DNA of 64,000 nt, taken from the NCBI RefSeq assembly GCF_009827315.1, contig NZ_WTYF01000004.1:372001-436000 (forward strand), written 5' to 3'. This DNA is from Qipengyuania gaetbuli. GTDB taxonomy: Bacteria > Pseudomonadota > Alphaproteobacteria > Sphingomonadales > Sphingomonadaceae. A program made the position numbers and the translations under genes. This document shows, one piece after another, positions 1,372 to 28,296 of this stretch (within the stretch, counting starts at the first letter, position 1; each line of letters begins with the position of its first letter). The notes beneath the pieces were generated by a model. It was not told the DNA's origin. It did not search any database and saw only the letters and a list, made by a program, of their open reading frames with translations.

Positions 1372-1386
1372 GCTCTCCTCGCAGTA

Positions 1387-2526: not shown

Positions 2527-2546
2527 TGCCCCCGCGCGCTAGCGGC

Positions 2547-2575
2547 TTGCCGTTTTCGCTGCAACGCACTATGTG
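2547..2575 (+). promoter_or_regulatory. Candidate sigma-70-type promoter for dusB-ntr operon
   Basis: TTGCCG (2547-2552) and TATGTG (2570-2575) are separated by 17 bp, about 30 bp upstream of the dusB ATG, in the gap between the divergent ispDF and dusB. The spacing is ideal but the -10 match is only moderate, so this is a pattern-based suggestion. Confidence 0.3.
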
Positions 2576-2603
2576 ACTGCCCAATTATTAGGCACACGCG
2601 AAA

Positions 2604-4681: not shown

Positions 4682-4684
4682 CCG

Positions 4685-6100: not shown

Positions 6101-6161
6101 TGGGCATTTCGTCGTTTTTGCCCTTGCAAAAGTGCAACAGAGGTGTCGTAACTTAGCCACG

Positions 6162-8402: not shown

Positions 8403-8406
8403 TTCA

Positions 8407-9789
8407 ATGGCACTCGACATCCTGATAGTCGACGACGAGCGCGATATTCGCGACCTGGTCGCAGGCGTCTTGAGCGACGAGGGCTATGAATGCCGCACCG
8501 CAGCCGATAGCTCCTCCGCGCTTGAGGCGGTCGATGCCAAGCGGCCCAGCCTTGTCCTGCTCGACGTCTGGCTCCACGGCAGCCAGATGGACGGGCTCGA
8601 AGTGCTCGACGCGATCAAGGCGCGCGAGCCCGAACTGCCGGTCATCATCTTCTCGGGTCACGGCAACATCGACACGGCCGTCTCGGCGGTCAGCCGCGGC
8701 GCGATGGACTTCATCGAGAAGCCGTTCGAGGCAGAGCGCCTCCTTCACTTGGTAGAACGCGCCACCGAAACGGAGCGGCTTCGCCGGGAAAACTCGCGGC
8801 TGCGCGAAGGCATGGGCGAGGGCGGCGAGTTCACCGGCAACTCGGCCGCAATCAATGCTGTTCGTGCCACCCTCAAGCGCGTGGCCAGCACCGGGAGCCG
8901 CGTGCTCATCAGCGGCCCGGCCGGCTCGGGCAAGGAAGTGGCAGCGCGCCTGCTCCACAGCTGGTCGACACGTGCCGACAAGCCGTTCGTGATCGTGAAT
9001 TCCGCGCGGATCACGCCGGAGCGCTTCGAGGAAGAGCTATTCGGCGAAGAAGCCGAAGGCAAGCTGGTGCGACCCGGCCTCCTGGAAACTGCTGACGGCG
9101 GCACGCTCTATCTCGACGAGGTCGCCGACATGCCCCTGTCGACGCAGGCTCGTATCCTGCGGGTCCTCACCGAGCAGAGCTTCGTCCGCGTGGGCGGGAC
9201 ACGGCAGATCGGGGTGGATGTCCGTGTGGTGTCCTCCACTGCGCGCGACCTCAAGGCAGAGATGGAGGAAAAGCGGTTTCGCGAAGACCTCTTCTATCGC
9301 CTGAACGTTGTTCCGGTCGAGGTCCCCTCGCTCGCCGAACGACGCGATGACATTCCCGCCCTGGCCGAGCATTTCTTCGCCCGTTACGCGATCGAACAAG
9401 GCATCCGTCCGCCGGAAATCAGCGAAGAAGCGATGGCCGCCCTGCAGGCATATGACTGGCCAGGCAACGTGCGCCAGCTTCGCAATGTGGTGGAGCGGAC
9501 GATCATCCTGACCCCGCGCGAACAATTGGACACGGTCGAAGCCGACATGCTTTCGGAGGAAGTGACCGGCGGCAAGCTTGGCGGCACCGGCGGTATGGCG
9601 CAGCTGATGGGTGCCCCCTTGCGTGAAGCGCGGGAAAGCTTTGAGCGGGAATATCTCGCCATCCAGATCCGTCGCTTCTCGGGAAACATCTCGAAAACGG
9701 CCAGCTTCATCGGGATGGAACGCTCGGCGCTCCATCGCAAGCTGAAGCTCCTCGGCATGGCAGAGCGCAAGAACGGCGAGCGCAAGTAG
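8407..9789 (+). CDS. ntrX: Response regulator NtrX (AAA+ domain without GAFTGA loop)
   Basis: A 460-residue NtrC-like regulator 4 bp after ntrY. The receiver has the phospho-acceptor Asp in LVLLDVWLHG. Walker A is GPAGSGKEVAARLL (about residue 171) and Walker B is GTLYLDEVADM. The C-terminal Fis-type helix-turn-helix contains GNISKTASFIGMERSALHRK. Where sigma-54 activators carry GAFTGA, this protein reads ELFGEEAEGKLVRPGLLE, so the sigma-54 contact loop is missing. It should therefore not remodel sigma-54 holoenzyme and may act as a repressor or with another sigma factor. The ATG at 8407 follows an AGAAGGG site; an upstream in-frame start at 8332 would lie inside ntrY. Confidence 0.94.
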   Translation: MALDILIVDDERDIRDLVAGVLSDEGYECRTAADSSSALEAVDAKRPSLVLLDVWLHGSQMDGLEVLDAIKAREPELPVIIFSGHGNIDTAVSAVSRGAMDFIEKPFEAERLLHLVERATETERLRRENSRLREGMGEGGEFTGNSAAINAVRATLKRVASTGSRVLISGPAGSGKEVAARLLHSWSTRADKPFVIVNSARITPERFEEELFGEEAEGKLVRPGLLETADGGTLYLDEVADMPLSTQARILRVLTEQSFVRVGGTRQIGVDVRVVSSTARDLKAEMEEKRFREDLFYRLNVVPVEVPSLAERRDDIPALAEHFFARYAIEQGIRPPEISEEAMAALQAYDWPGNVRQLRNVVERTIILTPREQLDTVEADMLSEEVTGGKLGGTGGMAQLMGAPLREARESFEREYLAIQIRRFSGNISKTASFIGMERSALHRKLKLLGMAERKNGERK

Positions 9790-9867
9790 GCCGCGACACC
9801 TTCATTTTTGGACGTGTGCAATAAATTTCATTGCGATTGCGCGATGAAATGCCACATATTGCGCAAG

Positions 9868-9887
9868 TTCCGGTGGCAACTCCGGAA
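9868..9887 (+). promoter_or_regulatory. Inverted repeat in the hfq leader region
   Basis: TTCCGG at 9868-9873 and CCGGAA at 9882-9887 form a 6-bp stem with an 8-nt loop, 66 bp upstream of the hfq start in the 164-bp gap after ntrX. It has no T-run, so it does not look like an intrinsic terminator. It could structure the hfq leader or be an operator. Confidence 0.3.
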
Positions 9888-9953
9888 TTCGGGCGCGGTG
9901 GTTGCGCCCAGATTGTGATCGCGAAAGCGTTCGCCAAGAAAAGGAGCAGGACA

Positions 9954-10493
9954 ATGGCCAGCGAACGCACGCTTTCCGCGCGCCCGCGACCCAAGCAGGA
10001 TGAAGCGCAGCACAAGGGCAAGGCGCCAAGCTTGCAGGACGCGTTTCTCAACCTCTTGCGGAAAAACAAGACGCCTGTAACCGTATTCCTGGTAAAGGGT
10101 GTGAAGCTGCAGGGCATCGTGACGTGGTTCGATAATTTCTCGATCCTGCTGCGCCGTGATGGACAGTCGCAACTCGTCTACAAGCATGCTGTCAGCACGA
10201 TCATGCCGGGGCAGCCGATCGATGCTGAACAGTTTGCCAGCCAAGGTTCGGGCGCCAAGCAGCGCTTATTGCAGGATGTGTTCCTGAGCCGTGTCCGAGA
10301 AGCCGAAGCGCAGGTGACGATGTTCCTCGTGAACGGCGTCATGCTCCAGGGCAAGATCGCGGCTTACGACCTTTTCTGCATGCTGCTCGAACGCGATGGC
10401 TATGTGCAGCTTGCCTACAAGCACGCGGTGTCGACGATCCAGCCGGCGACGCCGGTCGACCTTAGCGAAGACTGGGACGAGGACGAACACTGA
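9954..10493 (+). CDS. hfq: RNA chaperone Hfq with two tandem Sm domains
   Basis: Hfq is the RNA chaperone that pairs small RNAs with mRNAs. Usual bacterial Hfq is 70-110 residues with one Sm domain per chain. This one is 179 residues with two. Copy 1 (about 26-88) is canonical: [39 protein letters not shown] and [12 protein letters not shown]. Copy 2 (about 103-165) is diverged: [41 protein letters not shown] and [12 protein letters not shown]. Both keep the Sm2 YKH motif. The C-terminus is acidic (SEDWDEDEH). The start is the ATG at 9954 with an AGGAG site. A ring built from three two-domain chains would give a pseudo-hexamer (inference). hflX follows closely, as is usual. Confidence 0.95.
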
Positions 10494-10510
10494 GTTTCGA
10501 TGACAATTTG

Positions 10511-11812
10511 ATGGGCGAGGTCTCGCGCGGTGCGCGGGCCCTTGTCGTTTGCCCAGATATCCGGGGCATTCGCTATGACCTTGATGCCGATAGCCGGCTT
10601 CAGGAAGCGGAGGGACTTGCGCTGGCGATCGGTATCGTCATTGCCGACAGTTTCGTGCTGCCGGTTCGCGATGTGAAACCTAATCTGCTGTTCGGTGCGG
10701 GGCAGGTGGAAAACATCCGCATCGCGTGCGAGCAAAACGATGCCGAGCTTGTTGTGGTGGACGGTTCTCTCAGCCCGATCCAGCAGCGCAATCTCGAGGA
10801 CAAGCTGGCGCGGAAGGTCATTGACCGCACCGGCTTGATCCTTGAAATTTTCGGCGAGCGTGCTGCGACCGCGGAAGGGCGCTTGCAGGTCGAATTGGCC
10901 CATCTGGATTATCAGCAGAGCAGGCTGGTGCGCAGTTGGACCCACCTGGAGCGGCAGCGCGGTGGTTTCGGTTTCCTCGGTGGTCCGGGTGAAACCCAGA
11001 TCGAGGCTGACCGGCGCATGATCCGCCAGCGCATGGCGCGCCTGCGCAAGGAACTGGAACAGGTCCGAAAAACCCGAGGTCTCCATCGCGAAAGGCGAGA
11101 GCGGGCACCTTGGCCGGTCGTTGCCCTCGTCGGCTATACGAACGCGGGAAAATCCACTCTATTCAATCGCTTGACCGGTGCGGATGTCATGGCCGAGGAC
11201 CTGCTTTTCGCAACACTCGACCCGACGATGCGGGCCATTTCCTTGCCCGGTGTCGAAAAGGCCATCCTGTCCGATACGGTCGGTTTCATTTCGGACTTGC
11301 CGACGCAGCTTGTCGCCGCCTTCCGCGCGACGCTTGAGGAAGTAACCGCCGCAGACCTGATCTGCCACGTCCGTGACATTTCCAATCCATCGTCAGAAGC
11401 GCAGAAGCTCCAGGTACTCGAGGTCCTGGGGGAGCTTGGGGTGATTGACGGGGAAGGGGAGGACCCGAAAGTCCCCATCCTGGAGGTCTGGAACAAGTGG
11501 GATCTGCTGGATGCCGTCCAGGCGGAGGAACTGGCCAAGGTTGCCGAGGATGACGAGGGCATAATCGCGCTTTCCGCACTAACCGGAGCGGGCGTCGATG
11601 GTTTTCTCGACCGAGTTGGCCAAATGCTGACTTCGCGGGCGACGGTCCGCGAATTCGTCTTGCCATCCAGCGACGGCAAGCGGATCGCCTGGCTTCATGC
11701 GCACGGGGATGTACTTGAGGAAGCCGACGCAGGCGAAAGCGACGGGCAATCATTGCGACGGTTCACCGTCACGCTCAATCCCAAAGAACTGGGCCAGTTC
11801 CAGTCGCTATAA
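10511..11812 (+). CDS. hflX: Ribosome-associated GTPase HflX
   Basis: A 433-residue HflX GTPase, which splits stalled or hibernating ribosomes in stress. The N-terminal HflX domain includes LFGAGQVENI and GGPGETQIEADRR. The G domain has G1 GYTNAGKSTLFN, G3 DTVGFISDLP and G4 NKWD. The start is uncertain. ATG 10511 and TTG 10508 are both possible, and the frame is open back to a CTG that overlaps the hfq stop (10490), with a plausible SFDDN leader in between. The gene is co-directional with hfq, 17 bp apart. Its 3' end overlaps the convergent mazG by 6 bp. Confidence 0.94.
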   Translation: MGEVSRGARALVVCPDIRGIRYDLDADSRLQEAEGLALAIGIVIADSFVLPVRDVKPNLLFGAGQVENIRIACEQNDAELVVVDGSLSPIQQRNLEDKLARKVIDRTGLILEIFGERAATAEGRLQVELAHLDYQQSRLVRSWTHLERQRGGFGFLGGPGETQIEADRRMIRQRMARLRKELEQVRKTRGLHRERRERAPWPVVALVGYTNAGKSTLFNRLTGADVMAEDLLFATLDPTMRAISLPGVEKAILSDTVGFISDLPTQLVAAFRATLEEVTAADLICHVRDISNPSSEAQKLQVLEVLGELGVIDGEGEDPKVPILEVWNKWDLLDAVQAEELAKVAEDDEGIIALSALTGAGVDGFLDRVGQMLTSRATVREFVLPSSDGKRIAWLHAHGDVLEEADAGESDGQSLRRFTVTLNPKELGQFQSL

Positions 11813-12568
11813 CCGCGCTTTCTCGCGCCGCTTGACCTCCTGCCAGAGCTCTTCCTGCTGCTCGAGATTGCGTTGCTCGAAGTCGCCTCCGGCTAGCTCC
11901 TCCATCTCGCGGAAACGTCTTTCGAATTTTCGGTTTGCTGCCCGCAACGCTTCTTCTGCATCTATTCCGTATGCGCGGACCAGATTGACGGCCGCGAAAA
12001 GGAAATCGCCTGCTTCTTCAGCGCGCTGGTCAGGAGTGGCAGTGTCGAGCTCCTCGATCTCTTCGACGACCTTTGCTCGCGGGCCTTCGGTATCGGGCCA
12101 ATCGAAGCCGTGACGTGCGGCACGTTTCTGGAGTTTCTGCGCTCGCAGCAAGGCAGGTAGTGCCGACGCAACGCCATCCATCGCGCTGGTTGACCCGTCA
12201 GCCTGGCGTTCAGCGGCCTTGAGGTCTTCCCAGCGAGATTCCTCCATCACGCCACCTTCGGAGCCGAAAATGTGTGGGTGGCGTGCTTCCATCTTGTCTG
12301 AAATTGTCTTGGCAACTTCTTCGAAGCCGAAATGACCGGCTTCCTTCGCCATCTGTGCGTGGAAGACGACCTGGAACAGGAGATCTCCGAGTTCACCGCG
12401 CAATTCTTCCATATCTTCGCGCTCGATAGCGTCAGCTACCTCGTAGGCTTCCTCTATGGTGTAGGGTGCGATCGTCTGGAACGTTTGCGCTGTGTCCCAT
12501 TCGCAACCTCGTTCCTTGTCGCGCAGCCGCGCCATTATCCGCAGGAGTCGATTGATCTCGTTTGCCAT
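11807..12568 (-). CDS. mazG: Nucleoside triphosphate pyrophosphohydrolase MazG
   Basis: A 253-residue all-alpha NTP pyrophosphatase with the tandem MazG-domain layout of the E. coli enzyme. It hydrolyses NTPs and dNTPs to monophosphates and cleans the nucleotide pool. Metal-binding acidic motifs appear twice: EEAYEVADAIE with ELGDLLFQVVFHAQ in the first half, and VVEEIEELD with EEAGDFLFAAVNLVRA in the second. A position next to hflX and hfq is common in sphingomonads. The ATG at 12568 is preceded by about 104 bp of non-coding sequence containing a stem-loop and an AT-rich palindrome. Confidence 0.94.
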   Translation of the reverse strand: MANEINRLLRIMARLRDKERGCEWDTAQTFQTIAPYTIEEAYEVADAIEREDMEELRGELGDLLFQVVFHAQMAKEAGHFGFEEVAKTISDKMEARHPHIFGSEGGVMEESRWEDLKAAERQADGSTSAMDGVASALPALLRAQKLQKRAARHGFDWPDTEGPRAKVVEEIEELDTATPDQRAEEAGDFLFAAVNLVRAYGIDAEEALRAANRKFERRFREMEELAGGDFEQRNLEQQEELWQEVKRREKARL

Positions 12569-12584
12569 GATGCTGGTTTACGTG

Positions 12585-12607
12585 AGGCTTCGGGAGGGGG
12601 GAAGCCT
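12585..12607. repeat. Stem-loop upstream of mazG
   Basis: AGGCTTC (12585-12591) and GAAGCCT (12601-12607) form a perfect 7-bp stem around a 9-nt loop, 17 bp upstream of the mazG ATG. It may lie in the mazG 5' leader. In the other direction no gene ends nearby, so it is not obviously a terminator. Confidence 0.3.
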
Positions 12608-12637
12608 ACGATACGGCTTGTTTCAACGTCAGGATGG

Positions 12638-12651
12638 ATAATATATATTAT
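12638..12651. repeat. AT-only 14-bp palindrome
   Basis: A perfect palindrome of alternating A/T (ATAATATATATTAT) sits between mazG and the small membrane gene, in otherwise GC-rich DNA. It may be part of the mazG promoter or a regulator site. No matching -35 box at good spacing is evident. Confidence 0.3.
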
Positions 12652-12672
12652 GTTAAATAATCTGTAAGGCGG

Positions 12673-12849
12673 TTATGACATTCCGGTCAGCCAGCTGACG
12701 ATCACATATGCCCCCAGGATGATTGCCACCCATACCAAGGCAATCTTGAGCATCTTGTTGCCGGTGAGCCCGTCGGACCGCATCCCTCTCAGGTATACTA
12801 TGGCCAAAGCAGCCATCACCGCCGCCCACATCCATGCTCCGATGCTCAT
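12673..12849 (-). CDS. Small two-helix membrane protein, 58 residues
   Basis: I do not recognise this family. The ATG at 12849 overlaps the stop of the upstream MBL gene as ATGA, and the frame ends at TAA 12673. The protein has two clear hydrophobic helices (WMWAAVMAALAIVYL near residues 6-20 and IALVWVAIILGAYVIVSWL near 36-54) joined by a short basic loop (RGMRSDGLTGNK). The overlapping start, the hydrophobic pattern and the position at the end of a coupled gene run make it a real gene rather than a chance frame. It is the last gene of the dac-tmk-holB-metG-tatD-MBL series. Its function is unknown. Confidence 0.72.
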   Translation of the reverse strand: MSIGAWMWAAVMAALAIVYLRGMRSDGLTGNKMLKIALVWVAIILGAYVIVSWLTGMS

Positions 12850-13613
12850 GCGCGCAACTCCAATCCGTCATACCCGACTACGATGCCGCTCGGGACTTCG
12901 TCCACCAGCGAGGCGTAATCCATAGTCTTGTCGAGATGCGTCAGTACGGCAGTTTTCGCTTTGCATCGCCGAGCCAGGTCGATTGCCATGTCCAGGTGGG
13001 CATGCGTTGGATGCGGCCGGCGGCGCAGGCAATCGACCACCAGAATGTCGGTGCCTTTGAAGCAATCGATCATGTCTTTAGTGATCTCGCTGAAATCCGT
13101 CGCGTAAACGATGGACTTCCCGTCGGCCTCAAACCGGAAACCGGTGCTTGTCACCGGCCCGTGCGGCATCTCGACATAATCGAAAGAAAATCCAGCAACC
13201 AGTTGAACTTGCGACACTTCTTTGAGGCTCATCAAGGTCGGATAACCGTGCTGGCCGTCGAAAATATAGTCGAAACGTCGCAGCAGGTTCTTGCATGTCC
13301 TGGTATTGGCGAAACCGGGCAATGGATTGCTTCGATCATAGCGCATGACGCGCAAGTCATCGATGCCGTGGCAATGATCTGCGTGGTCGTGCGTCCAGAA
13401 GACCGCATCGACTTTCTCTATTCCATTGGCCAGCAGTTGGGCCCTCAGATCGGTCGAGGTGTCTACGAGGATACGCTGCCGGGCGTCGTTCTCGACTATG
13501 ATCGATACACGGCTACGGCGGTTGCGTGGCTCCGATGGATCGCATTCGCCCCAGTCATTCCCGATACGTGGAACGCCGGTGGACGTTCCTGATCCGAGCA
13601 TGATGACTTTCAC
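12846..13613 (-). CDS. MBL-fold metal-dependent hydrolase, PhnP-like
   Basis: A 255-residue metallo-beta-lactamase-fold hydrolase. The N-terminus MKVIMLGSGTSTGVPRIG and the metal motif THDHADHCHG place it near the PhnP / RNase Z-like phosphodiesterase group. Later ligands are in YATDFSE and THLDKTMDY. Members cleave cyclic phosphodiesters, but the substrate here is unknown. This gene commonly follows tatD in alphaproteobacteria, and the conserved linkage suggests a housekeeping role. The GTG start overlaps the tatD stop (GTGA). Confidence 0.85.
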   Translation of the reverse strand: MKVIMLGSGTSTGVPRIGNDWGECDPSEPRNRRSRVSIIVENDARQRILVDTSTDLRAQLLANGIEKVDAVFWTHDHADHCHGIDDLRVMRYDRSNPLPGFANTRTCKNLLRRFDYIFDGQHGYPTLMSLKEVSQVQLVAGFSFDYVEMPHGPVTSTGFRFEADGKSIVYATDFSEITKDMIDCFKGTDILVVDCLRRRPHPTHAHLDMAIDLARRCKAKTAVLTHLDKTMDYASLVDEVPSGIVVGYDGLELRA

Positions 13614-14386
13614 GCGGCTGCCTTGGAAAAGAGGCGGTAGAAATTGTCGGTCGTCACGCGCGATAGCTCATCGAAGCTTTCGCCGCGAAGATCGGCGAGG
13701 AAGCGCGCGGTGTCGCCGACGTAGCCCGGTTCGCAAGTCTTGCCGCGATGAGGAACAGGGGCAAGGAACGGGCTGTCGGTTTCAACGAGCAGCCTGTCCT
13801 GAGGAATTTCCCGTGCGAATTCCTGCAGTTCTTTGGCGTTCTTGAAGGTCACGATGCCCGATATGGAGATCGACAGGCCGAGCTCCAGCACCCGCTGCCC
13901 GAATTCAGGCGAGGCGGTAAAGCAATGGATCAGAGCGGGGAACGCCCCCTTCCCCATCTCTTCCGACAAGATGGCGAGGGTGTCTTCTTCCGCATTGCGC
14001 GTGTGGATGATCACCGGAAGCTGCACTTCACGCGCCACGCCGATATGCAGGCGGAAAAGCTCGCGCTGCGCATCGCGATCAGAGTGGTTGTAGTAATAGT
14101 CGAGCCCCGTCTCGCCGATGCCGATCACCCTGGGATCGTGGGTGGCCTCCAGCAGTTCGTCCCGCGTCAGCCCGGGGTGATCATCCGCATTGTGAGGGTG
14201 GATCCCGACGCTGGCCCAGACATCCGGCTGTGCGTTGGCCGTGCCCACGACTTGCGGCCATTCCGCCTGCTTGGTGGAGATATTGAGGAAAGCGCCCACG
14301 CCTGCTTCGCGGGCTCGCGTGAGTACTTCGTCGCGCTCTTCCACCAAGCCCTTGTACTCGAGATGGCAATGGCTATCGACAAGCAT
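13610..14386 (-). CDS. tatD: TatD-family metal-dependent deoxyribonuclease
   Basis: A 258-residue TIM-barrel hydrolase of the TatD/YcfH family (3'-5' exonuclease and D-aminoacyl-tRNA deacylase-like activities are reported for members). Metal ligands are visible in DSHCHLE at the start, GIGETGLDYYY near residue 92, IIHTRNAEEDT and VETDSPFLAP. ATG 14386 shares one base with the metG stop (TGATG), so I preferred it to a TTG one codon upstream. metG-tatD adjacency is widely conserved. Confidence 0.93.
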   Translation of the reverse strand: MLVDSHCHLEYKGLVEERDEVLTRAREAGVGAFLNISTKQAEWPQVVGTANAQPDVWASVGIHPHNADDHPGLTRDELLEATHDPRVIGIGETGLDYYYNHSDRDAQRELFRLHIGVAREVQLPVIIHTRNAEEDTLAILSEEMGKGAFPALIHCFTASPEFGQRVLELGLSISISGIVTFKNAKELQEFAREIPQDRLLVETDSPFLAPVPHRGKTCEPGYVGDTARFLADLRGESFDELSRVTTDNFYRLFSKAAA

Positions 14387-15945
14387 CAAGCGGCCTCGGG
14401 TTCGGGCAGTTCGAGGCGCGGGAACACGGGCGTGGGCTTGTCGACAATATGTCCGGCCGAGACCAGTTCATCGAACCATCTGTAATCCGCAAGGTCGGCA
14501 TAGGTACGCCGTTCGCCCGGGACACCGAGCTGGTCGAGTACCGCGGCCGCCTTGGTCGGAACGACAGGCTGGATCGCGATCGCCAGGTCGCGAATGGCGA
14601 GAAAAAGCGTCTGAAGGACCGCCTTCATGCGTTCCGGATCGGTCTTCTTCAGACCCCATGGCGCCTGTTCGTCGACATAGGCATTACAAGCGAAGACTGC
14701 CTTGAGCCACGCTTCGATGCCCACGCTGAAATTCAGCGCGTCGAATTCCTGGGGCAGGACCTCGGCGCAAGCATTGCGGACAGTTGAAAGAAGCGCCTTG
14801 TCATCGTCATTGGTCTCGAAAGCCTCGAGCTTGCCGTCCATGTTCTTCGAGATCATCGAAAGCGTGCGCTGGGCGAGGTTGCCGAAGCTGTTTGCCAGTT
14901 CCGCATTCACCTTGTTTACAAGGGCTTCGGCCGAATAGCTTCCATCCTTGCCGAAGATGACTTCGGCCATCAGGAAATACCGGAGGGAATCCACTCCGAA
15001 CAGATCGACCAGATCGTTGGGATCGGTGACATTCCCCGCGGACTTGGATTCCTTGACGCCGCGATTGAGCAGGAACCCGTGCCCGAAAACCTTCTGCGGG
15101 ACCGGGATGCCGGCGCTTATGAGGAAGGCGGGCCAATAGATGGTGTGGAACCGGACGATGTCCTTGCCGATCAAGTGCAGGCTGGCCGGCCAGTACTTCT
15201 GCCAGAGCTCGCCGCCATCCGGATAACCGAGGCCGGTGATGTAGTTCGTCAGGGCATCGACCCACACATACATGACATGATTTTCATGCCCCGGCACTTT
15301 CACGCCCCAATCGAAGCTGGTGCGCGAAACCGACAGGTCTTTCAGGCCTCCTTCGACGAAGGCGATCATCTCGTTGCGGCGACTTGCCGGCTCGAGAAAT
15401 CCCGGAGTGTTGAGGAGTTCGAGGAGCGGCTTTGCGTAGTTGGACAGCCGGAAAAACCAGGTTTCTTCCTCGGTCCATTCGACCGGAGTGCCTTGGGGCG
15501 AGAGCTTTTCACCCCCTTCCCCCTCGACAAGTTCCTTTTCGTCGTAATAGGCCTCGTCACGGACCGAGTACCATCCTTCGTAGCGGTCGAGGTACAGGTC
15601 ACCCTTCGCCTCCATCGCTTCCCAGATCGCGCGGCTTGCCTTGTGATGATCCTCGTCCGTGGTGCGGATGAAGCGATCATAGGTGATGTCGAGCCTGTCG
15701 AAGAGCTCGCGGAAAGCCCCGGACATTTCGTCCGCAAGCTCGCGCGGTGTCTTCCCGAGGTCGCGGGCTTTCTGGGCCATTTTCAGACCATGCTCGTCGG
15801 TCCCGGTCTGGAAGCGTACGTCGCGCCCCATCAGACGGTGGAAACGAGCGATGACGTCGGCAGCAATCGTTTCGTAGGCATGGCCGATATGCGGCTTGCC
15901 GTTGGGATAGTGGATTGCGGTGGTAATGTAGAAAGGGTCAGCCAT
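14386..15945 (-). CDS. metG: Methionyl-tRNA synthetase
   Basis: A class I aminoacyl-tRNA synthetase of 519 residues that charges tRNA-Met. It has the HIGH-type motif YPNGKPHIGHAYE and the KMSKS-type motif KESKSAGN. The C-terminal dimerisation (Trbp111-like) domain found in E. coli MetG is absent; the protein ends after the anticodon-binding helical domain. I chose ATG 15945 (MADPFYITT) because the upstream extension is unconserved. This start lies within the last codons of holB, giving an 8-bp overlap. No methionine-related riboswitch was seen, consistent with the gene being in the middle of an operon. Confidence 0.96.
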   Translation of the reverse strand: MADPFYITTAIHYPNGKPHIGHAYETIAADVIARFHRLMGRDVRFQTGTDEHGLKMAQKARDLGKTPRELADEMSGAFRELFDRLDITYDRFIRTTDEDHHKASRAIWEAMEAKGDLYLDRYEGWYSVRDEAYYDEKELVEGEGGEKLSPQGTPVEWTEEETWFFRLSNYAKPLLELLNTPGFLEPASRRNEMIAFVEGGLKDLSVSRTSFDWGVKVPGHENHVMYVWVDALTNYITGLGYPDGGELWQKYWPASLHLIGKDIVRFHTIYWPAFLISAGIPVPQKVFGHGFLLNRGVKESKSAGNVTDPNDLVDLFGVDSLRYFLMAEVIFGKDGSYSAEALVNKVNAELANSFGNLAQRTLSMISKNMDGKLEAFETNDDDKALLSTVRNACAEVLPQEFDALNFSVGIEAWLKAVFACNAYVDEQAPWGLKKTDPERMKAVLQTLFLAIRDLAIAIQPVVPTKAAAVLDQLGVPGERRTYADLADYRWFDELVSAGHIVDKPTPVFPRLELPEPEAA

Positions 15946-20004: not shown

Positions 20005-20094
20005 GGACAGGTGGCAGAGTGGTTGAATGCAGCGGTCTTGAAAACCGCCGTGGGTTCACGCCCACCGTGGGTTCGAATCCCACCCTGTCCGCCA
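20005..20094 (+). tRNA. tRNA-Ser (anticodon TGA), CCA encoded
   Basis: The 90-nt gene folds as a type II tRNA. Acceptor GGACAGG (20005-20011) pairs with CCTGTCC (20084-20090), followed by discriminator G and an encoded CCA. The anticodon loop CTTGAAA has anticodon TGA and is flanked by GCGGT/ACCGC. The long variable arm (CGTGGGTTCACGCCCACC) and the T-arm GTGGGTTCGAATCCCAC are clear. It reads UCA (and, by wobble, UCG) serine codons. Confidence 0.97.
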
Positions 20095-20429
20095 CATTTC
20101 GCTTCTGGCTACCTTTGTGGCAGCGACGGCGCTGAAATGTATAGAAGCGTCAAAAAACGCTCGCCAAAACAAAGCGGTTGACTTGGTAGCATGCGTGGTT
20201 AACTTTTCGTTAACCCTGTTGGATCGAGTCGTTTCATCTCCTGCAACCGGGCATAACAACAAACTCTGGGCCGCCTTGCGATGCAGCGAACCGAACGAAA
20301 AGTTCGGGCGCGTCGAGGGCTGTTTCTTCTGCCTTCAACAAGCTGCGATGCGAGAAAATTGCATCAAATCAGAGCGGTATAAACCGCCTGGGTCAGCTTC
20401 TTGAACATTCAGGCACCGGGAGAAGCGAA
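20095..20429 (+). promoter_or_regulatory. Long regulatory region and structured leader of the type I secretion substrate
   Basis: This 335-bp gap has no convincing gene. It holds a TTGACT -35-like box (20178-20183), a perfect CtrA-type box (20199-20214), a GANTC methylation site (20226-20230), and three small stem-loops in the presumed 5' leader: 20291-20307 (CCGAAC, loop GAAAA, GTTCGG), 20347-20365 (GATGC and GCATC) and 20374-20387 (GCGGT, loop ATAA, ACCGC). A GGGAGAAG ribosome-binding site precedes the ATG at 20430. The transcription start is not determined. Confidence 0.5.
20199..20214. promoter_or_regulatory. CtrA-type operator, TTAA-N7-TTAAC
   Basis: The sequence matches the full CtrA consensus TTAA-N7-TTAAC and is also a near-palindrome (GGTTAAC, five bases, GTTAACC at 20197-20215). 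CtrA is the cell-cycle and motility master regulator of alphaproteobacteria. A TTGACT -35-like box is 15 bp upstream and a GAGTC CcrM-type site is 12 bp downstream. It would place the surface protein gene under cell-cycle or motile/sessile control (inference). Confidence 0.55.
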
Positions 20430-23400
20430 ATGCCTATTCGAGTAGACGAAAACGGCGACGGCATCTGGGACAAGGAACTGGACGACGACACGGTTGGCCT
20501 TCCGCCCATCACTGACAAAACCGGCGATGGGAAACTCGATGTCGACCTGACAACTGCCAATTCCTCTGCGGTGATCAATGGCGCTGTCTTTCTCGATGCT
20601 GCCAATGTTGGCGCCGGTACCGGCAATTATAACACCTTCCTTGCTATTCAGGACGACAATGATCCCGGAAGTGTGGAGGAAGGGTTCAACTCCGATGACA
20701 AGAACCCGCTACATCCCAGCAACGACGAGATCGACCAGTCCAAGACTGAGACGATCCTCCTCGGCTCTATTCCCATCACGTACTACGATGCGGATGGTGA
20801 TGGCATTGAGGAAGCGTACTTCGAATTCCGCGTCGATCTGAACGAAAGCAATTCGAGCCCCGATACACAGATCTCGCTCGATTCCTTCCAGCTCTACGCA
20901 TCGCAAGACGGCACGATCGAGGACCTCGCGGTCCTGCAAGCGCAGAACAAGATTTACGACATGGATGCCGGCCAGGACGTGTCGGTCCTGTTGAGCGAGG
21001 CCAATTCGTCCGGCTCCGGCAACGACGACTATTCCGTGCTGGTCCCTGTAGAAGCCTTCGGCAATGCCGATCCGGCCACGACTTACGTCTACCTGTATGT
21101 GAAGATGGGCGAAGCGGGAGCGACTTGGACCGTCCAGGGCGGGTTCGAAGAATGGAACCTGCAGAATGCGGTGATCCTCCAGGGCACGAAGTTCGAGGAT
21201 ACCGATGGCGACGGCGTTCGCGACGATGGCGAAGGCGGTCTCGGCGGCGTGAAGATATTCATCGACAATGACCTCGACGGGATTGTCGAGGCCACCGATG
21301 GCAACGGCGTCCTCGACCCGGGCGAACGCTTTACCTTCACCAATCCGGACGGATCATACTCCTTCGGGAGCATCCCGCTTTTCGATTCAAGCTACACCAT
21401 CCAGGTCCGGGAAGTGGTGCCTGACGGCTATGTCAGGACCACGGGCGATTTCGAAACCGTGCTGATTTCTTCCAACGCCGATGCCGGGGACATCCTGCAG
21501 GTCGATCCGATCGGTAACAAGCCGCTGACCCCCAGCATCGATCTGGACAAGGAAATTCCGGAAATCGAGGGCGGCGTCGGTTTGAACGGCCTTGGCGGAG
21601 CCAACAGCGCTGGTGACAAGATCATCTACCAGTTCACCGTCACCAATGATGGCGAGCTGGATCTCACCAACGTAGTACTGACCGATCCCAATATCGATGT
21701 CGGTTCGCTCGTGCGGGGTGACGACATCGTTGGTGACAACGATAACATCCTCGAGGTCGGAGAAGTCTGGTCCTACACTGCAAGTCATACCGTCACACAG
21801 GACGAACTGGACAGCAACGGCAACGACAGTGCCGATGGCGCCGACGGTGACATCGACAATACTGCCGGCGTCACGGGTGACTCGGCCCGCGGCCAGGTTT
21901 CCGACAGTGACAGCGAGGATGCCCCGCTCGTCCGCGTAGCGGCGATCGACGTGGTGAAATCGGTCACGTCCATCGAAGATGGCGACGACTTCGGAGGAAC
22001 GGGCCAAGTCGATAGCCCCGGTGACGTGATCAATTACCTCCTGACCATTTCGAACGAAGGCAACTACGCGCTTTCCGGCGTGACCATGGAAGATCAGGTC
22101 GAAGGTTACGCATCGGTCGATGCGACACCCGTCGACGATGGCTTCGGCTACAATATCGGCGACCTCGACCAGGACAACCTGCTCGATGTCAATGAAACGT
22201 GGCAGTATACCGCCAGCTACACGGTCACGCAGGAAGATATCGATTCCAACGGGTTTGGCGATGGAGACATCGATAACATCGCAACTGGCGACACTGCGGA
22301 AACCGGTCCGGACACTGACGTGGAAGCTGTGCCCATCGTGGACGATCCGGCGATCAAGATCGTCAAAGACGCGGAATCGAGCGATCCGGAATGCACCGAT
22401 GCCGGGGATACGATCACCTACACCTACACGGTGACGAACGAGGGTAATGTCTCGCTCGACAACGTGGTGGTGGTCGACGATGCGGCAACGCCGGGCGATG
22501 ACACCGACGACTTCTCGCCGACCTATGTCAGCGGCGATACCGATGCCGACGGCGAGCTCGATGTGGGCGAGACCTGGACCTACACCGCGCAGTATGTGGT
22601 GACCCAGGCCGACGTCGACGGCGGCGGCCCGATCGTGAACACGGCGACCGCCAATGGCGACTCGGTTGCGAGCGGCGATGCGGCAGAGGAATCCTCTGAC
22701 GATGCAAGCGTCGAACTGTGCGACGATCCGGCGATCAAGATCGTCAAAGACGCGGAATCGAGCGATCCGGAATGCACCGATGCCGGGGATACGATCACCT
22801 ACACCTACACGGTGACGAACGAGGGTAATGTCTCGCTCGACAACGTGGTGGTGGTCGACGATGCGGCAACGCCGGGCGATGACACCGACGACTTCTCGCC
22901 GACCTATGTCAGCGGCGATACCGATGCCGACGGCGAGCTCGATGTGGGCGAGACCTGGACCTACACCGCGCAGTATGTGGTGACCCAGGCCGACGTCGAC
23001 GCGAACACACCTATCGTGAATACCGCGATCGCCAATGCTGTCTCGGTAGCCTCGGGAGATGCGGCTGAAGAATCCTCGGACGACGCAAGTGTCGACGTGT
23101 GCTGGGAGCCTGCAATCGACGTCGAAAAACTCGTCTCGATCAGCGGCAACGCCTTCGATCCGGTGCTCGACGATCACGACAGTCCGACAGGGCCGCAGGC
23201 GACAACTGCGAATACGCCGATCTACTTCCTCGTATCGGTAGCCAATATCGGCAACGTCACTCTGACGGCGCTCGACTTCAGCGATATCCTGTCGTCACCG
23301 GGAGGTTCCGTCTTCGCCGGAGAGCTCAACTACGCTGATCCCTCGATCGATGCGTGGGTCGATCTCGACGGCAACGGTTCGCGCGATGCCAACGAGGACT

Positions 23401-24347
23401 GGGCGCTGAACGACGTCAATGCCGACGGGGTGCTGGACACTGTCGAACTCGCTCCGGGCGAGACGATCAATGTCTATTACACCATGCCGTTCGAGGCCGG
23501 GCAGCACATCAACACCGTTACGGTCACGACCGCAGAAGGTGTGTCCGACAGCGATGCGGCGCATTACTTCGGGCTCAACGATCCCGGGTCCGGCGTCCGC
23601 ACCCCGGGCTTCTGGCAGGGCCCGAACAATGGCCTCACTTTCTGGGACGGCATTGCCGACAACCAGGCGCATGATGGCGAAGGCTTCCCCGATGGCGATC
23701 CGTCGACAGAGGGTAACCAGGACCTGCTTTACGCGGTGGACAGCAATGGTGATGGCGTAATCGACGGCGCGGACAAGCAAGGCCTGCTCGTCGGCGACTA
23801 CAACGGCGATGGGCTGGGCACTGGTGAAGATGTGTTCTTCATCTCACTCAAGGATGCCCAGGACTTGGTCGACGCATCGACCAAGAGCGGGAACGACGTC
23901 ATCTCCAAGATGGGCCGTGACGTTGTGGCGACCTGGCTGAACTTCCTTGCCGGAAACAGCCTGGGCGACGGTTCGGAAGGCACGGCAAAGCATTACCTCG
24001 ATGATGCCATCGACTGGATGCAGAGCTTCGCCGACGGCACGCCCAAGGTCTCCGAACTTGGCGAGGCCTTCGACGATTACGTAGCCGGTTCGCGCATCAA
24101 GACGAGCGAGAACAGCTGGAAGTCCCCGCAAGGTGACAGCGATCACTCTGGCGCGGACATCCACAACGCTCTCGCCGAGTACAACGAGAGCGGCACGGTG
24201 AACGGCCTGTTCGTTGCCGGCGACGGTGACAGCGCGGCCTTCCAGGCGGCATTGTCCGAGGCAGTGAACAGCGGGCTCTTCATGGTGGCACCGATCGGGG
24301 ACGACCCGCTCGTGGTGGGAGATGGCATGACCATCGCCATCGCCTGA
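20430..24347 (+). CDS. Giant acidic Ca-loop surface protein, predicted type I secretion substrate
   Basis: I recognise domains but not a named protein. The 1305-residue chain is extremely rich in Asp, Glu, Gly, Thr and Val, with almost no Cys or Lys, and starts without a signal peptide ([17 protein letters not shown]). Residues about 1-250 form an unknown region with DADGDGIEE loops. About 252-347 is SdrD-B/prealbumin-like ([12 protein letters not shown] ... GSYSF). About 370-1045 holds five DUF11-like beta repeats with a recurring TYTAxYxVTQxD strand; repeats at 638 and 765 have a 127-residue period. About 1046-1305 starts with [11 protein letters not shown], has a dockerin-like pair ([24 protein letters not shown]) and ends hydrophobically (MTIAIA), as type I signals often do. 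No RTX nonapeptides are present. The exporter genes follow directly. A role as an S-layer, sheath or adhesin is inferred. Confidence 0.85.
22341..22620 (+). repeat. Perfect 280-bp direct repeat, copy 1
   Basis: Identical base for base to 22722-23001, offset 381 bp (127 codons). It encodes residues 638-730 of the secreted protein, a DUF11-like unit with [10 protein letters not shown] and [14 protein letters not shown]. Flanking codons of the same repeat unit (22621-22721) are diverged from their counterpart, so the identity ends abruptly. Confidence 0.95.
22722..23001 (+). repeat. Perfect 280-bp direct repeat, copy 2
   Basis: Second copy of the repeat at 22341-22620, encoding residues from 765 on. 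After 23001 the DNA diverges from copy 1, while the protein remains similar ([21 protein letters not shown]). This suggests gene conversion or selection on a core rather than a simple fresh duplication. Confidence 0.95.
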
Positions 24348-24364
24348 GGAGGCACTGTCCGGGA

Positions 24365-24397
24365 CCGGCATCGCTGCCATCGCGGCAGCGGTGCCGG
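24365..24397 (+). terminator. Strong hairpin between secreted-protein gene and exporter gene
   Basis: Fourteen-base arms (24365-24378 and 24384-24397, one G-T wobble) enclose a 5-nt loop, 17 bp after the stop of the surface protein gene. Only a short T-run (CCTTTC) follows, so it could be a leaky terminator or a 3' mRNA stabiliser. Either would give much more substrate than exporter mRNA, as seen in known type I systems with substrate-first operons. Confidence 0.6.
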
Positions 24398-24423
24398 ACC
24401 TTTCATTGGGGGGAGGATTGGAC

Positions 24424-26154
24424 TTGGCAGACTTGGAACATGAATCGGATGGGCCGAAGCCGCGCATAGCGCCATGGCTATCGGGTCCGCTGAAAAAAAG
24501 TCGCCCGCTCTACATGCGGGTCCTTGTCGCAGCCTTCCTGATCAATTGCTTCGCCCTCGTCACCGCCCTGTTCACGATGACGGTCTATGATCGCATCGTC
24601 CCGAACAATGCGACCGAAAGCCTGATCGGCCTCGCCATTGGGCTCGGTATCGTCCTGATCTTCGATTTCGTCCTGAAGCTCCTGCGGTCCTATTTCGTGG
24701 ACATTGCCGGTGCCCGAGTGGACCGTGATATCGGCCGCGCCATTTTCGAGCGTATCCTCGCACTGCGACTGGATCTCAGCCGGCACACCACTGGCGGGCT
24801 TGCGGGCCTCGTCCGCGAAATCGAAACTCTGCGCGACTTCTTCGCCTCCGCCACCATCACCGCGATGGTCGACGTTCCCTTCACGATCATTACACTGCTG
24901 GTGATCGCCATGATCGGCGGTTGGCTGGTCATGGTGCCCTTGGTGATGATCCCGGTGGTCATCCTTGCTGCCCTCGCAACGCAGCCGGCCATGCGGCGGC
25001 TTTCGTCGCAGGCTCTCGATGAAGCGCTGGGGAAACAGGCCGTGCTGGTCGAAACCATCGGCAGCCTGGAAACGGTCAAATCGTCGAATGCCGGCGACAT
25101 GCTCAGCAAGCGCTGGGAAGAGGCGATGAAAGGCCATGCCGGCGTATCGCTGCGCCAGCGCCTGACCGCCAACCTCGCCACTACGGTCGCTGGCAGTGCG
25201 CAAACAATGGCCTATACCGGCATGGTGATTTTCGGCGTCTTTGCGATTGCCGACCAGTCGCTGACGATGGGCGGCCTGATCGCCTGTTCGATCCTTGCCG
25301 GACGCGCTGTCGCACCCCTCGGGGCGATTTCCGTGCTGCTGACGCGGATCCATGCAGCGCGCACCGCTTATCGCCGCATCGATGCGATGATGGAAATGCC
25401 CGCCGAAGGGCCCGAAGGCCTCGGTCTTGCTCCTGCAAAACTGGAAGGCGGGATAGAGTTCCGAGACGTCGATTTCCGCTATCCCGGCGCAGCTGAAATG
25501 GCCCTGACGGGTGTCAACTTCAACATCCGACCGGGCGAGCACGTAGCCCTGATCGGCCCGATCGGGTCGGGCAAATCGACCGTCGCACGGCTGTTGATCG
25601 GGCTTTACCCTCCCACGAGCGGCCTGGTCATGATCGACGGCACCGATATCCGGCAGCTAACGCCCAAGTCGCTGCGTGCGAAAGTAGGCGCGCTGCTGCA
25701 GGACAATGCCCTGCTTACCGGCACCATCCGCGAGAACATCATGCTCGGCCGCCCTGATGCCGATGACGAGGAAATGATCAGGGCTGCCAAGCTCAGCCAT
25801 GCTCACGACTTCATCTCACGCATGCCGAACGGATACGACCTCAGGCTGGCAGACCGCGGTTCGGGGCTTTCCGGCGGGCAGCGGCAGGCCATCGCCATGG
25901 CGCGGGCACTCGTGGGGCAGCCGCCCATCCTCGTGTTCGACGAGCCGACATCGGCAGTCGATACCGAGACAGAGGCACTGCTGATGAACAATCTGCGCCA
26001 CGAATTCCAGGGACGGACGCTGATCCTGATCACCCACCGCCCCTCCCTCCTCGGCCTGGTGGACCGGGTCATCCTCATGTCGCGCGGAAGGGTGGCGATG
26101 GACGGCACCCCTGAAGACATCACGCGCAAGGTTACAAGGATAGCGGCACGATGA
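24424..26154 (+). CDS. Type I secretion ABC transporter (PrtD/RsaD type, no C39 domain)
   Basis: A 576-residue fused membrane-ATPase exporter. Transmembrane helices span about residues 20-290 (ALVTALFTMTVYDRIVPNN is a typical first-helix motif). The ATPase has Walker A GPIGSGKST, signature LSGGQRQAIAMARAL, Walker B ILVFDEPTSA and H-loop ITHRPS. There is no N-terminal C39 peptidase or C39-like domain, so it falls in the PrtD/RsaD size class rather than LapB/HlyB. I chose TTG 24424, seven bases after a GGGGGGAGG site; GTG 24391 lies inside the preceding hairpin and lacks a ribosome-binding site. The next gene overlaps as ATGA. The substrate is presumably the protein encoded just upstream. Confidence 0.93.
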   Translation: MADLEHESDGPKPRIAPWLSGPLKKSRPLYMRVLVAAFLINCFALVTALFTMTVYDRIVPNNATESLIGLAIGLGIVLIFDFVLKLLRSYFVDIAGARVDRDIGRAIFERILALRLDLSRHTTGGLAGLVREIETLRDFFASATITAMVDVPFTIITLLVIAMIGGWLVMVPLVMIPVVILAALATQPAMRRLSSQALDEALGKQAVLVETIGSLETVKSSNAGDMLSKRWEEAMKGHAGVSLRQRLTANLATTVAGSAQTMAYTGMVIFGVFAIADQSLTMGGLIACSILAGRAVAPLGAISVLLTRIHAARTAYRRIDAMMEMPAEGPEGLGLAPAKLEGGIEFRDVDFRYPGAAEMALTGVNFNIRPGEHVALIGPIGSGKSTVARLLIGLYPPTSGLVMIDGTDIRQLTPKSLRAKVGALLQDNALLTGTIRENIMLGRPDADDEEMIRAAKLSHAHDFISRMPNGYDLRLADRGSGLSGGQRQAIAMARALVGQPPILVFDEPTSAVDTETEALLMNNLRHEFQGRTLILITHRPSLLGLVDRVILMSRGRVAMDGTPEDITRKVTRIAAR

Positions 26155-27467
26155 ACGCCTTCTCCAAGATAACGAGCAGCCTCCTTGGCGAGGAAGAGGA
26201 ATTCGAAGAGCAGGAGCTCAAGGCGAAGAAATCGTCGAACCTGATCCTGTGGTCGATTGCCGCCTTTACATTGATCGCGGTTGTCTGGGCAGCCTTTGCA
26301 ACCGTCGAAAGGACAGTACGGGCGTCAGGCCGCGTCGTTCCGAGTTCAAAGCTGCAGGTCGCCTCGAACCTCGAAGGCGGCGTGGTGGAAGAGATCCTTG
26401 TGACCGCAGGACAGGACGTCAGGCGCGGCCAGGTCCTCGTTCGCCTGAACCCTGCGATTACCGGCTCTGCGCTTGGCAGTTCGGAAGCCAGTGTCGACGC
26501 CTTGGAGGCGCGTATTGCGAGGCTTCGTGCCGAGGTTAGCGGCGGGGCACCAGAATACGGCAATTTGCCGGACAGCCAGGTTACTATCGAGCGCTCGCTT
26601 CATTCGGCCCGGTCGGCGGAGTTGAGCAGCCTGCGGTCGGCGGGACAGGCGCGTGTCGTCCAAGCCCAGCGTTCGGTTGCGGAAGCGCAATCGATCCTCG
26701 CTGCACGCGAATCCAATCTCGTCACGGCAAACCGAGAGCTGGAAATGCTGCGGCCCCTTGCGGCCCAGAGGATCGTGCCGGAGATTGAGCTCATTCAGGC
26801 CGAGAACGCGGCCCAGATCGCTGCCAGCGAGGTAGCTGCGGCAAGGGCCTCCCTCGCCCGCTCCCAGTCCAGCATTGCCGAAGCTCAGGCGGCGTTGGCG
26901 CAGCAGGTCAGCGATTGGCGCAGCCGGGCGGGCATGGAACTCTCGCAAGCGCAGGCCGACCTGTCGGTGCAAAAGATGACTCTCCCCGGCCTCGAGGACA
27001 GGGTCGACCGTACGGTGATCCGCGCTCCCATGACCGGGCGGGTGAACCGCGTGTTCGTCACCACTGTCGGGGGAAGCGTAGGTTCGGGCGAGCCGATCGT
27101 CGAGATCGTGCCGACCGACGATGCTCTCTATATCGAGGCCATGGTGCGCCCGCAGGACATTGCCAACGTCGGTCTCGGCCAAAGAGCGTTCGTCGAAATC
27201 ACCGCCTACAATCCGGCGATCTTCGGCAAGATGGCCGGGACCGTAACGTCGATTTCGCCCGATGCCGTCGTAAACGAGGAGACGGGCGAAAGCTTCTATA
27301 CCGTCGAGGTCAGGACGACAGAGGTGCTGAAAGACCAGGACGGCGAGCCGCTCGACATCGGACCCGGCATGGTGGCCAATGTCAGCCTGCTGGGCGAGGA
27401 GCGTTCGATCCTCTCGTACCTCTTCACGCCGATCACCTGGCTGAAGGAAAACGCCTTCAGGGAATAG
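26151..27467 (+). CDS. Type I secretion membrane fusion protein, HlyD family
   Basis: A 438-residue periplasmic adaptor linking the inner-membrane ABC exporter to an outer-membrane TolC-type channel. It has an N-terminal cytoplasmic tail rich in Glu and Lys, one membrane helix (LILWSIAAFTLIAVVWAAF, about 32-50), a split lipoyl domain (VASNLEGGVVEEILVTAGQ and APMTGRVNRVF), long alpha-helical coiled-coil arms between them, and a beta-barrel C-terminus ending ILSYLFTPITWLKENAFRE, typical of HlyD/PrtE/RsaE. Its start overlaps the ABC gene. No TolC/OMF gene is in the window, so the channel must be encoded elsewhere. Confidence 0.94.
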   Translation: MNAFSKITSSLLGEEEEFEEQELKAKKSSNLILWSIAAFTLIAVVWAAFATVERTVRASGRVVPSSKLQVASNLEGGVVEEILVTAGQDVRRGQVLVRLNPAITGSALGSSEASVDALEARIARLRAEVSGGAPEYGNLPDSQVTIERSLHSARSAELSSLRSAGQARVVQAQRSVAEAQSILAARESNLVTANRELEMLRPLAAQRIVPEIELIQAENAAQIAASEVAAARASLARSQSSIAEAQAALAQQVSDWRSRAGMELSQAQADLSVQKMTLPGLEDRVDRTVIRAPMTGRVNRVFVTTVGGSVGSGEPIVEIVPTDDALYIEAMVRPQDIANVGLGQRAFVEITAYNPAIFGKMAGTVTSISPDAVVNEETGESFYTVEVRTTEVLKDQDGEPLDIGPGMVANVSLLGEERSILSYLFTPITWLKENAFRE

Positions 27468-27567: not shown

Positions 27568-28296
27568 TCAGGCGGTTATGCGATAGGTCGCCAAGGCCTC
27601 GTAATCTGCCCGGCAAGCTTCGGCCACTTCTTCGAATTCGGGCGCGAGATCGGGTAGGCCACCCGGGGGGGAGCCAAACCCGGTCGAGGCATTTACCTTG
27701 TCATACCAGTGAGTGCCCCAGATCCCGTCTTCGGGATGCGGTCCTTTTGTCCAGGACAACATTGTTGGGTCCCATTCAATACCGAGCCTTTCACACAGCT
27801 TCGCAAGAAGGCCTCCGGGGTTGTGGAGGATGTCACTGGTGTCGACCACCGGCGGTGCGTAACCCAACCGGTCGGATTCCATCTCGAAATACAATCGTTG
27901 CCGCGTGACCCCGAGATGCTCTGGCCGGATAGAGCTCCGCTTGTTGGCGTAGCTTGCCGCGACGCGGCGAGGATCCCGGATGAGGAAGGCGTGCCTGGTC
28001 TCGGGAAAATCCCGGATGTCGACCGGGCCTTCCATGTGGTGAGGCATATGTTTCTGATACCAGATCGGACTGCCGTCAGGACATTCGCCCCGCATCGCTT
28101 CGGCGACGGAGTTCCAGTCGCAGTCCATATCGGCGATTACCGCATCGGCCATGGGTTGGGGATCGCCGGTTTCCTTCAGATAGGCACCATAGAAAGGCTC
28201 GTCACTCACGAAGGTGTCCGGTCGAGCCCCGAAGCTGCGCATCATCGCAGTCGAAATGTTGCGCGGTCCCGACCACATGGCGATGCGGATGGTCAC
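27568..28296 (-). CDS. Sulfotransferase-like P-loop protein
   Basis: A 242-residue protein of the sulfotransferase family found next to class IV aminotransferases in many bacteria. The N-terminal P-loop-like motif is MWSGPRNISTAMMRSF and the 3'-phosphate motif region is FLIRDPRRVAASYANKRS. The substrate is unknown, and whether it uses PAPS is inferred from the motif pair only. The GTG start overlaps the aminotransferase stop (GTGA), so the two work from one transcript and probably in one pathway. Confidence 0.75.
   Translation of the reverse strand: MTIRIAMWSGPRNISTAMMRSFGARPDTFVSDEPFYGAYLKETGDPQPMADAVIADMDCDWNSVAEAMRGECPDGSPIWYQKHMPHHMEGPVDIRDFPETRHAFLIRDPRRVAASYANKRSSIRPEHLGVTRQRLYFEMESDRLGYAPPVVDTSDILHNPGGLLAKLCERLGIEWDPTMLSWTKGPHPEDGIWGTHWYDKVNASTGFGSPPGGLPDLAPEFEEVAEACRADYEALATYRITA

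Follow-up and report, generated by a model that had tools for sequence, protein, structure and literature searches.

A predicted type I secretion operon for a long, RTX-less repeat protein in Qipengyuania gaetbuli, and the C-terminal domain that recurs beside two classes of exporter

Many substrates of type I secretion are recognised by their RTX repeats, and RTX-less substrates are easily missed. One described system of comparable layout is the surface-layer (S-layer) locus of Caulobacter, in which rsaA, the substrate gene, is followed by genes for an ATP-binding cassette (ABC) exporter and a membrane fusion protein (MFP), the genes for the outer-membrane protein (OMP) not being adjacent (PMC3034196, in its account of this locus). 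On the substrate side, the sections of a 2025 survey that concern DUF11 and DUF7507 give these domains the names CLIPPER and CLIPPER_2, treat them as stalk domains of fibrillar adhesins and report a solved DUF11 structure containing a Lys-Asn isopeptide bond (PMC12617251). Here we analyse a stretch of 64,000 nucleotides from the sphingomonad Qipengyuania gaetbuli (contig NZ_WTYF01000004.1, positions 372,001 to 436,000; hereafter the window), in which a gene for a long acidic protein built of such repeats precedes genes for an ABC exporter and a HlyD-family MFP. We consider this probably to be a dedicated type I operon for one long surface protein, exported by means of its C-terminal domain and serving as a fibrillar adhesin or matrix protein.

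The host genome (2.78 Mb in 4 contigs, 100% complete) carries the three genes on one strand, downstream of tRNA-Ser(TGA), with the coordinates and sizes first assigned to them:

20430..24347, + strand: predicted exported protein (the substrate), 1305 residues, 136 kDa, pI 4.05
24424..26154, + strand: type I secretion ABC permease/ATPase of the LssB/LapB class, 576 residues from a TTG start, no C39-like domain
26151..27467, + strand: HlyD-family membrane fusion protein, 438 residues

The TTG start of the exporter gene at 24424 is closely preceded by GGGGGGAGGA, and an alternative GTG start at 24391 would yield 587 residues. The HlyD gene starts within the ABC gene, overlapping its stop by 4 nucleotides, and its product passes the TIGR01843 model (318.5 bits, cut-off 208.65). 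At the Q. gaetbuli locus L011 (L numbers denote the loci compared here) the ABC and HlyD proteins are 99.7% and 99% identical to those of the window.

The original prediction likened this arrangement to rsaA-rsaD-rsaE, and in gene order the likeness stands: as in the Caulobacter locus, so far as that source describes it, substrate, ABC and MFP follow one another on one strand without an adjacent OMP gene, and the window substrate is an acidic chain expected to need calcium. Kinship of the exporters is not supported. The window ABC protein passes the LssB model TIGR03375 (724.7 bits, cut-off 693.1), to which it aligns from position 134 of 696, that is, without a C39-like domain, and it fails the PrtD model (374.5 bits, cut-off 510.15). 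RsaD we take to be a PrtD-class exporter, and LssB is over cut-off in none of 14 control genomes, Caulobacter vibrioides included; this comparison with RsaA and RsaD is one of family models rather than of directly aligned sequences.

Evidence for a functional pairing of substrate and exporter comes from its recurrence. A scan of GTDB genomes for the C-terminal domain of the substrate yielded 68 loci, which were searched by tblastn with the window ABC and HlyD proteins. Seventeen are cyanobacterial and 51 are not, two of the latter (L033, L053) ending within 320 nucleotides of the gene. Consistently unlinked homologues had been named at the outset as the finding that would speak against an export cassette; linkage instead recurs in 37 of the 49 non-cyanobacterial loci with room for it, where ABC and HlyD genes lie downstream on the same strand, the ABC match falling within 1.1 kb of the substrate stop in 35 and within 5.1 kb in two (L046, L075). 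These 37 loci, which are not independent of one another, represent 17 named genera and two metagenome-assembled genomes (MAGs) without a genus. For comparison, a randomly chosen position in the genome would have an LssB gene within 10 kb about 1.4% of the time (two LssB matches in 2.78 Mb), a figure that holds for LssB only and not for PrtD. In a sample of the family the domain was present in 4 of 199 genomes (E up to 1e-15), with the exporter adjoining in three of the four, and in the genus it was present in 11 of 60 (E up to 1e-10), with the ABC and HlyD pair beside it in nine; many copies lie at contig ends, probably because of their repeats, and these presence counts are likely to be lower bounds.

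The linked exporters are of two kinds. By tblastn, 10 of the 37 resemble the window ABC protein (63-99.7% identity) and 27 are distant from it (27-31%). NCBIfam models were applied to nine, of which L012, L016 and L045 pass LssB and L023, L024, L026, L030, L073 and L074 pass PrtD, the remaining 28 being classed by identity only. The LssB-like set consists of sphingomonads and one unclassified MAG, and the distant or PrtD set of Caulobacter, Mesorhizobium, Bradyrhizobium, Reyranella, Devosia, a Beijerinckiaceae MAG and Rhodobacterales. The simplest explanation for the pairing of one cargo domain with exporters of two classes is that the domain is type I cargo in its own right. In a tree of the domain, many branches of which are weak, exporter class tracks host lineage, the LssB-linked rows falling in a 17-row cluster together with unlinked rows and the PrtD-linked rows outside it. 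A single switch of exporter was considered and dropped, given the many weak branches and an LssB cluster that is drawn open.

The substrate itself can be divided into four parts, all on the + strand:

20430..21179, + strand: N-terminal domain, residues 1-250, conserved in relatives (47 proteins)
21192..21449, + strand: SdrD_B-like module, residues 255-340, with two DxDxDG-type loops
21525..23564, + strand: five DUF7507/DUF11-like repeats, residues 366-1045, from Pfam matches and motifs
23517..24344, + strand: C-terminal domain, residues ~1030-1305, with two calcium-type loops and no library model

The C-terminal domain, which has no Pfam or NCBIfam match over cut-off, follows the motif RTPGFW...FWDG...GDYN..G..ED...RDVVAtWLN.LAGN...YN..G. 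It proves to be the most telling part of the protein, and the original prediction had not drawn attention to it. A protein search with residues 1030-1305 returned 78 proteins, with YNN.G among the conserved motifs, and a profile of the domain matches 103 of 110 proteins, ending in all 103 within 56 residues of the C-terminus; the set of 110 was chosen by searches with both ends of the window protein and is not a random sample. The corresponding search with the N-terminal domain returned 47 proteins, 40 of which also have the C-terminal domain. Among the seven others, five carry a partial label, and P0105 and P0109 share the N-terminal domain and end in a GFWK[TN]H variant. When the structure model of the C-terminal domain (predicted template-modelling score, pTM, 0.75) was compared with solved structures, nothing matched convincingly. 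Of 47 aligned rows, 45 contain one or more D.[DNS].[DNS]G loops, a count made without a shuffled control. In three Bradyrhizobium loci (L026, L027, L034) the chain terminates at YNNFG[ST]V, directly after the conserved motif, so that any C-terminal signal would need to lie inside the domain. Comparison with Q. aquimaris (identity to the window 92% for ABC, 87% for HlyD, 78% for the N-terminal and 73% for the C-terminal domain of the substrate) indicates that the substrate diverges faster than its exporter, as would be expected for an exposed protein.

In composition the chain is strongly acidic (191 D and 71 E against 26 K and 13 R). The lack of a signal peptide, claimed from the beginning, is borne out by hydropathy, the measure on which this judgement is based: the N-terminus is not hydrophobic, the highest 9-residue mean within the first 50 residues being 0.64, and of 75 relatives beginning with Met, 68 fall below the threshold used. 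Eight loops of the form D-x-[DNS]-x-[DNS]-G-x5-[DE] compare with a mean of 0.34 and a maximum of 3 in 1000 shuffles, for a pattern picked after the sequence had been seen. The N-terminal domain, for which Pfam and NCBIfam again give no match over cut-off, is modelled as a beta-sandwich (pTM 0.81). Among the modules originally proposed, DUF11 is confirmed by Pfam (57.8 bits, cut-off 24.6), SdrD-B is matched only below its cut-off (25.7 bits against 29.7), and the dockerin/EF-hand-like modules stand as loop motifs, the sole Pfam EF-hand match having an E value of 0.11. DUF7507 is likewise confirmed, with 239.6 bits against a cut-off of 27 over 4 tandem stretches; repeats 3 and 4 form a 381-nucleotide tandem unit (354 of 381 nucleotides identical), and the fifth repeat by itself is under the DUF7507 cut-off (17.4 bits against 27). 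No RTX model is among the Pfam matches of the substrate, as had been claimed and in contrast to RsaA, and the proposal that in a sphingomonad a substrate free of RTX matches adjoins a type I exporter of its own is upheld. Opposite the repeat region runs an antisense open reading frame of 596 residues (21387-23177, - strand); it is most likely spurious, a product of skewed codon usage in the acidic chain.

These repeats invite comparison with the CLIPPER adhesins. Candidate Lys-Asp-Asn triads, hand-picked from motifs, are present in all five, with K-to-D spacings of 37-52 residues and K-to-N spacings of 91, 91, 103, 106 and 128, while the DUF examples listed in the survey have 33-56 and 80-107 (PMC12617251). 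In their tandem DUF7507/DUF11 domains, candidate triads, SdrD_B-like module and long modular chain of surface type the two are alike, so far as the survey's account of these adhesins goes; the window protein differs in having neither a visible signal peptide nor a known sorting domain, and in having instead a dedicated type I exporter and the unmodelled C-terminal domain.

Around the three genes lie further features, of which the first marks the site that other genomes of the genus have empty:

20005..20094, + strand: tRNA-Ser(TGA), the left neighbour
20199..20213, + strand: CtrA-like box TTAACTTTTCGTTAA, beginning 231 nucleotides before the start codon
20268..20325, + strand: hairpin in the 5'-untranslated region (5'-UTR), between the CtrA-like box and the start codon
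24365..24397, + strand: 14-bp stem-loop between the substrate stop and the exporter gene, from folding

The right-hand marker gene of the site was matched in 21 of 60 genus genomes, our own included. In 17 of these 21 the tRNA-Ser and sulfotransferase genes are neighbours and the operon is missing from between them, the left-hand lytic-enzyme gene being also in view for 16 of the 17; the operon occupies the site in three (G000, G272, G209), and L119 is ambiguous. The operon is therefore present or absent as a unit. The two sides of this junction correspond to window positions 20005-20094 (tRNA) and 27571-28296 (sulfotransferase). In Q. aquimaris the operon lies at the same tRNA, but the stretch examined showed neither the sulfotransferase gene nor the marker gene.

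The box is the only TTAA-N7-TTAA, which we assume to be a CtrA site, in the window (0.06 expected) and one of four in the genome. Of the nine sphingomonad upstream regions taken into account, eight have it ahead of the substrate gene, and four of these eight come from close kin. The eight include Q. aquimaris (L012, which is also the genome of L097), G209 and G228, and, at other distances, Novosphingobium kunmingense and three Sphingomonas loci; the box is absent in L064. L015 and L134 show no box either but were not counted, since their frame is truncated within the gene. When seven of the nine upstream regions were shuffled, none showed the site in more than 10 of 1000 shuffles; outside the sphingomonads a box lies within 450 nucleotides upstream in 4 of 34 loci with a start. 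The 5'-UTR hairpin, which has no Rfam match at the gathering threshold, keeps its sequence across four Qipengyuania genomes apart from base changes in its upper stem; folding covered two of these genomes. When the position of the stem-loop behind the substrate gene was folded in 17 linked loci, five Qipengyuania gave the same hairpin with changed bases (-35 to -41 kcal/mol) and several other loci a strong hairpin, L015 and L037 giving only weak ones. Taken together, the box and the two hairpins suggest a dedicated control of the operon, putatively by CtrA.

How might such a protein reach the surface? Lacking a signal peptide, the 1305-residue chain would bypass the Sec pathway, and the LssB-class ABC protein with its HlyD adaptor would recognise the conserved C-terminal domain. 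The chain would leave unfolded and C-terminus first, as HlyA does, by way of a TolC whose gene lies elsewhere. Once outside, the C-terminal calcium loops would be the first to fold, taking the place of RTX repeats and preventing back-sliding; the DUF7507/DUF11 modules would then fold singly and become locked by Lys-Asn isopeptide bonds, the product being a stiff, protease-resistant rod or surface fibre bearing the N-terminal beta-sandwich. The narrow channel of PrtD apparently cannot hold a folded substrate, according to the part of PMC8277102 that deals with it, from which it follows that covalent cross-linking could take place only once the chain has been exported. More tentatively, and at somewhat less than even odds, we propose that the C-terminal domain is an unnamed alphaproteobacterial type I cargo domain, a module of calcium loops which replaces both the RTX block and the export signal, is accepted by the non-orthologous LssB and PrtD exporters, and has moved isopeptide-stalk adhesins to type I export, such that their cross-links form only outside, beginning with the C-terminal module. 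Each part has a known relative; searches confined to an open-licence library did not turn up their combination (an unmodelled cargo domain, a CLIPPER stalk without a signal peptide and two exporter classes).

Several observations weigh against a dedicated operon of this kind. Twelve of the 49 non-cyanobacterial loci have no ABC and HlyD genes downstream in about 10 kb, two of them (L019, L021) from the window's genus or its kin; ABC exporters are encoded elsewhere in all 12 genomes, at a threshold (E up to 1e-45) that also admits other ABC classes. None of the 17 cyanobacterial loci has ABC or HlyD downstream on the same strand, four of them having less than 5 kb of downstream sequence. The domain is hence not bound to a linked exporter, and the cyanobacterial relatives may use another export route. 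Since P0105 and P0109 share the N-terminal domain and end in the GFWK[TN]H variant, the C-terminal domain may, as far as these sequences tell, belong to a wider family of surface proteins that is not exporter-specific. Signal peptides are typical of DUF11 proteins in the survey's account of them, and the K-to-N spacing of 128 in the fifth repeat exceeds the 80-107 of its listed examples (PMC12617251). On the side of regulation, the genome as a whole shows no enrichment of TTAA-N7-TTAA (4 sites, the reversed pattern having 6), and terminator-like stem-loops in the region are not above chance (6 against 5.6 expected). Finally, the search for a linked TolC that had been proposed as a check found none in the window, either by tblastn or by PF02321, whose matches all lie outside it; having no TolC of its own, the operon must, judging by gene content, borrow one encoded elsewhere.

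Two side observations concern these loci. The cyanobacterial ones (L047-L052, L054, L055, L057-L063, L067, L070) mostly match only a part of the domain, from the RTPGFW to the LNY region. At L016 (N. kunmingense) a TolC-type gene, 38% identical to the TolC of our own genome, lies divergently upstream of the substrate gene (4726-6033, - strand).

The best surviving alternative, which we nevertheless regard as unlikely, is that the protein is a true S-layer or sheath protein with the function of RsaA, very abundant and paving the cell surface with a lattice that depends on calcium. The rsaA-like gene order with a non-adjacent OMP (PMC3034196, in the account cited above) and the acidic chain with its calcium loops would suit such a role, and the stem-loop behind the substrate stop could favour substrate over exporter mRNA. 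Yet no RTX model is matched, the exporter is not of the PrtD class, the domain occurs in no more than 11 of the 60 genus genomes, and relatives vary strongly in length; tandem repeats of isopeptide type, moreover, suit a rod more than a tile, and point to the stalk of a fibrillar adhesin, on the survey's treatment of these domains (PMC12617251). S-layer formation is thus possible, on positive evidence limited to gene order, and the surface-layer reading of the original prediction found no support of its own.

More doubtful still is a regulated adhesin of the LapA type, which an N-terminal plug would anchor in the outer membrane until a LapG-like protease of the genome set it free. With LapA/LapB/LapC the window operon shares an exporter of the LapB/LssB class and an MFP that passes TIGR01843, and the genome encodes two matches to PF06035 (Peptidase_C93, LapG-like), at C4:2072046 and C4:2258361. 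The operon differs from that system in having no C39-like domain, no linked TolC and no RTX match in its substrate, and its N-terminal region matches no named family over cut-off. The LapG-like genes, for their part, lie elsewhere: C4:2258361 is far from the window operon, and C4:2072046 adjoins another type I locus, which includes a TolC gene and the only other ABC protein of the genome to pass LssB (C4:2067596-2069671), matching the model from position 1 with the full N-terminal region. This second locus (L079, C4:2058001-2078000; positions 1-14486 of that stretch) combines TolC, the LssB ABC, HlyD and the Peptidase_C93 match with a giant repeat protein, 2458 residues of which lie in the stretch, its start cut off; a gene of 261 residues is also present.

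That the neighbouring exporter handles a different substrate, with the large protein there by chance or leaving otherwise, is very improbable: it could appeal to the 12 unlinked loci and to ten loci of other sphingomonads where exporters 54-61% identical to the window ABC protein, of the same class and with open frames (584-647 residues) too short for a C39-like domain, occur with a TolC gene in nine and with the C-terminal domain found in none (at one, L091, the substrate is RTX-like by eye), but linkage is repeated across the named genera and with two exporter classes, and at tRNA-Ser the operon comes and goes as one unit.

If the dedicated type I operon is the correct reading, the C-terminal domain would serve as a marker by which RTX-less substrates could be found from sequence, and what an exporter reads at the C-terminus of its cargo would become testable by swapping the domain between LssB and PrtD systems. 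The joining of self-cross-linking stalks with unfolded export would, in turn, present an order-of-assembly problem that is open to experiment.

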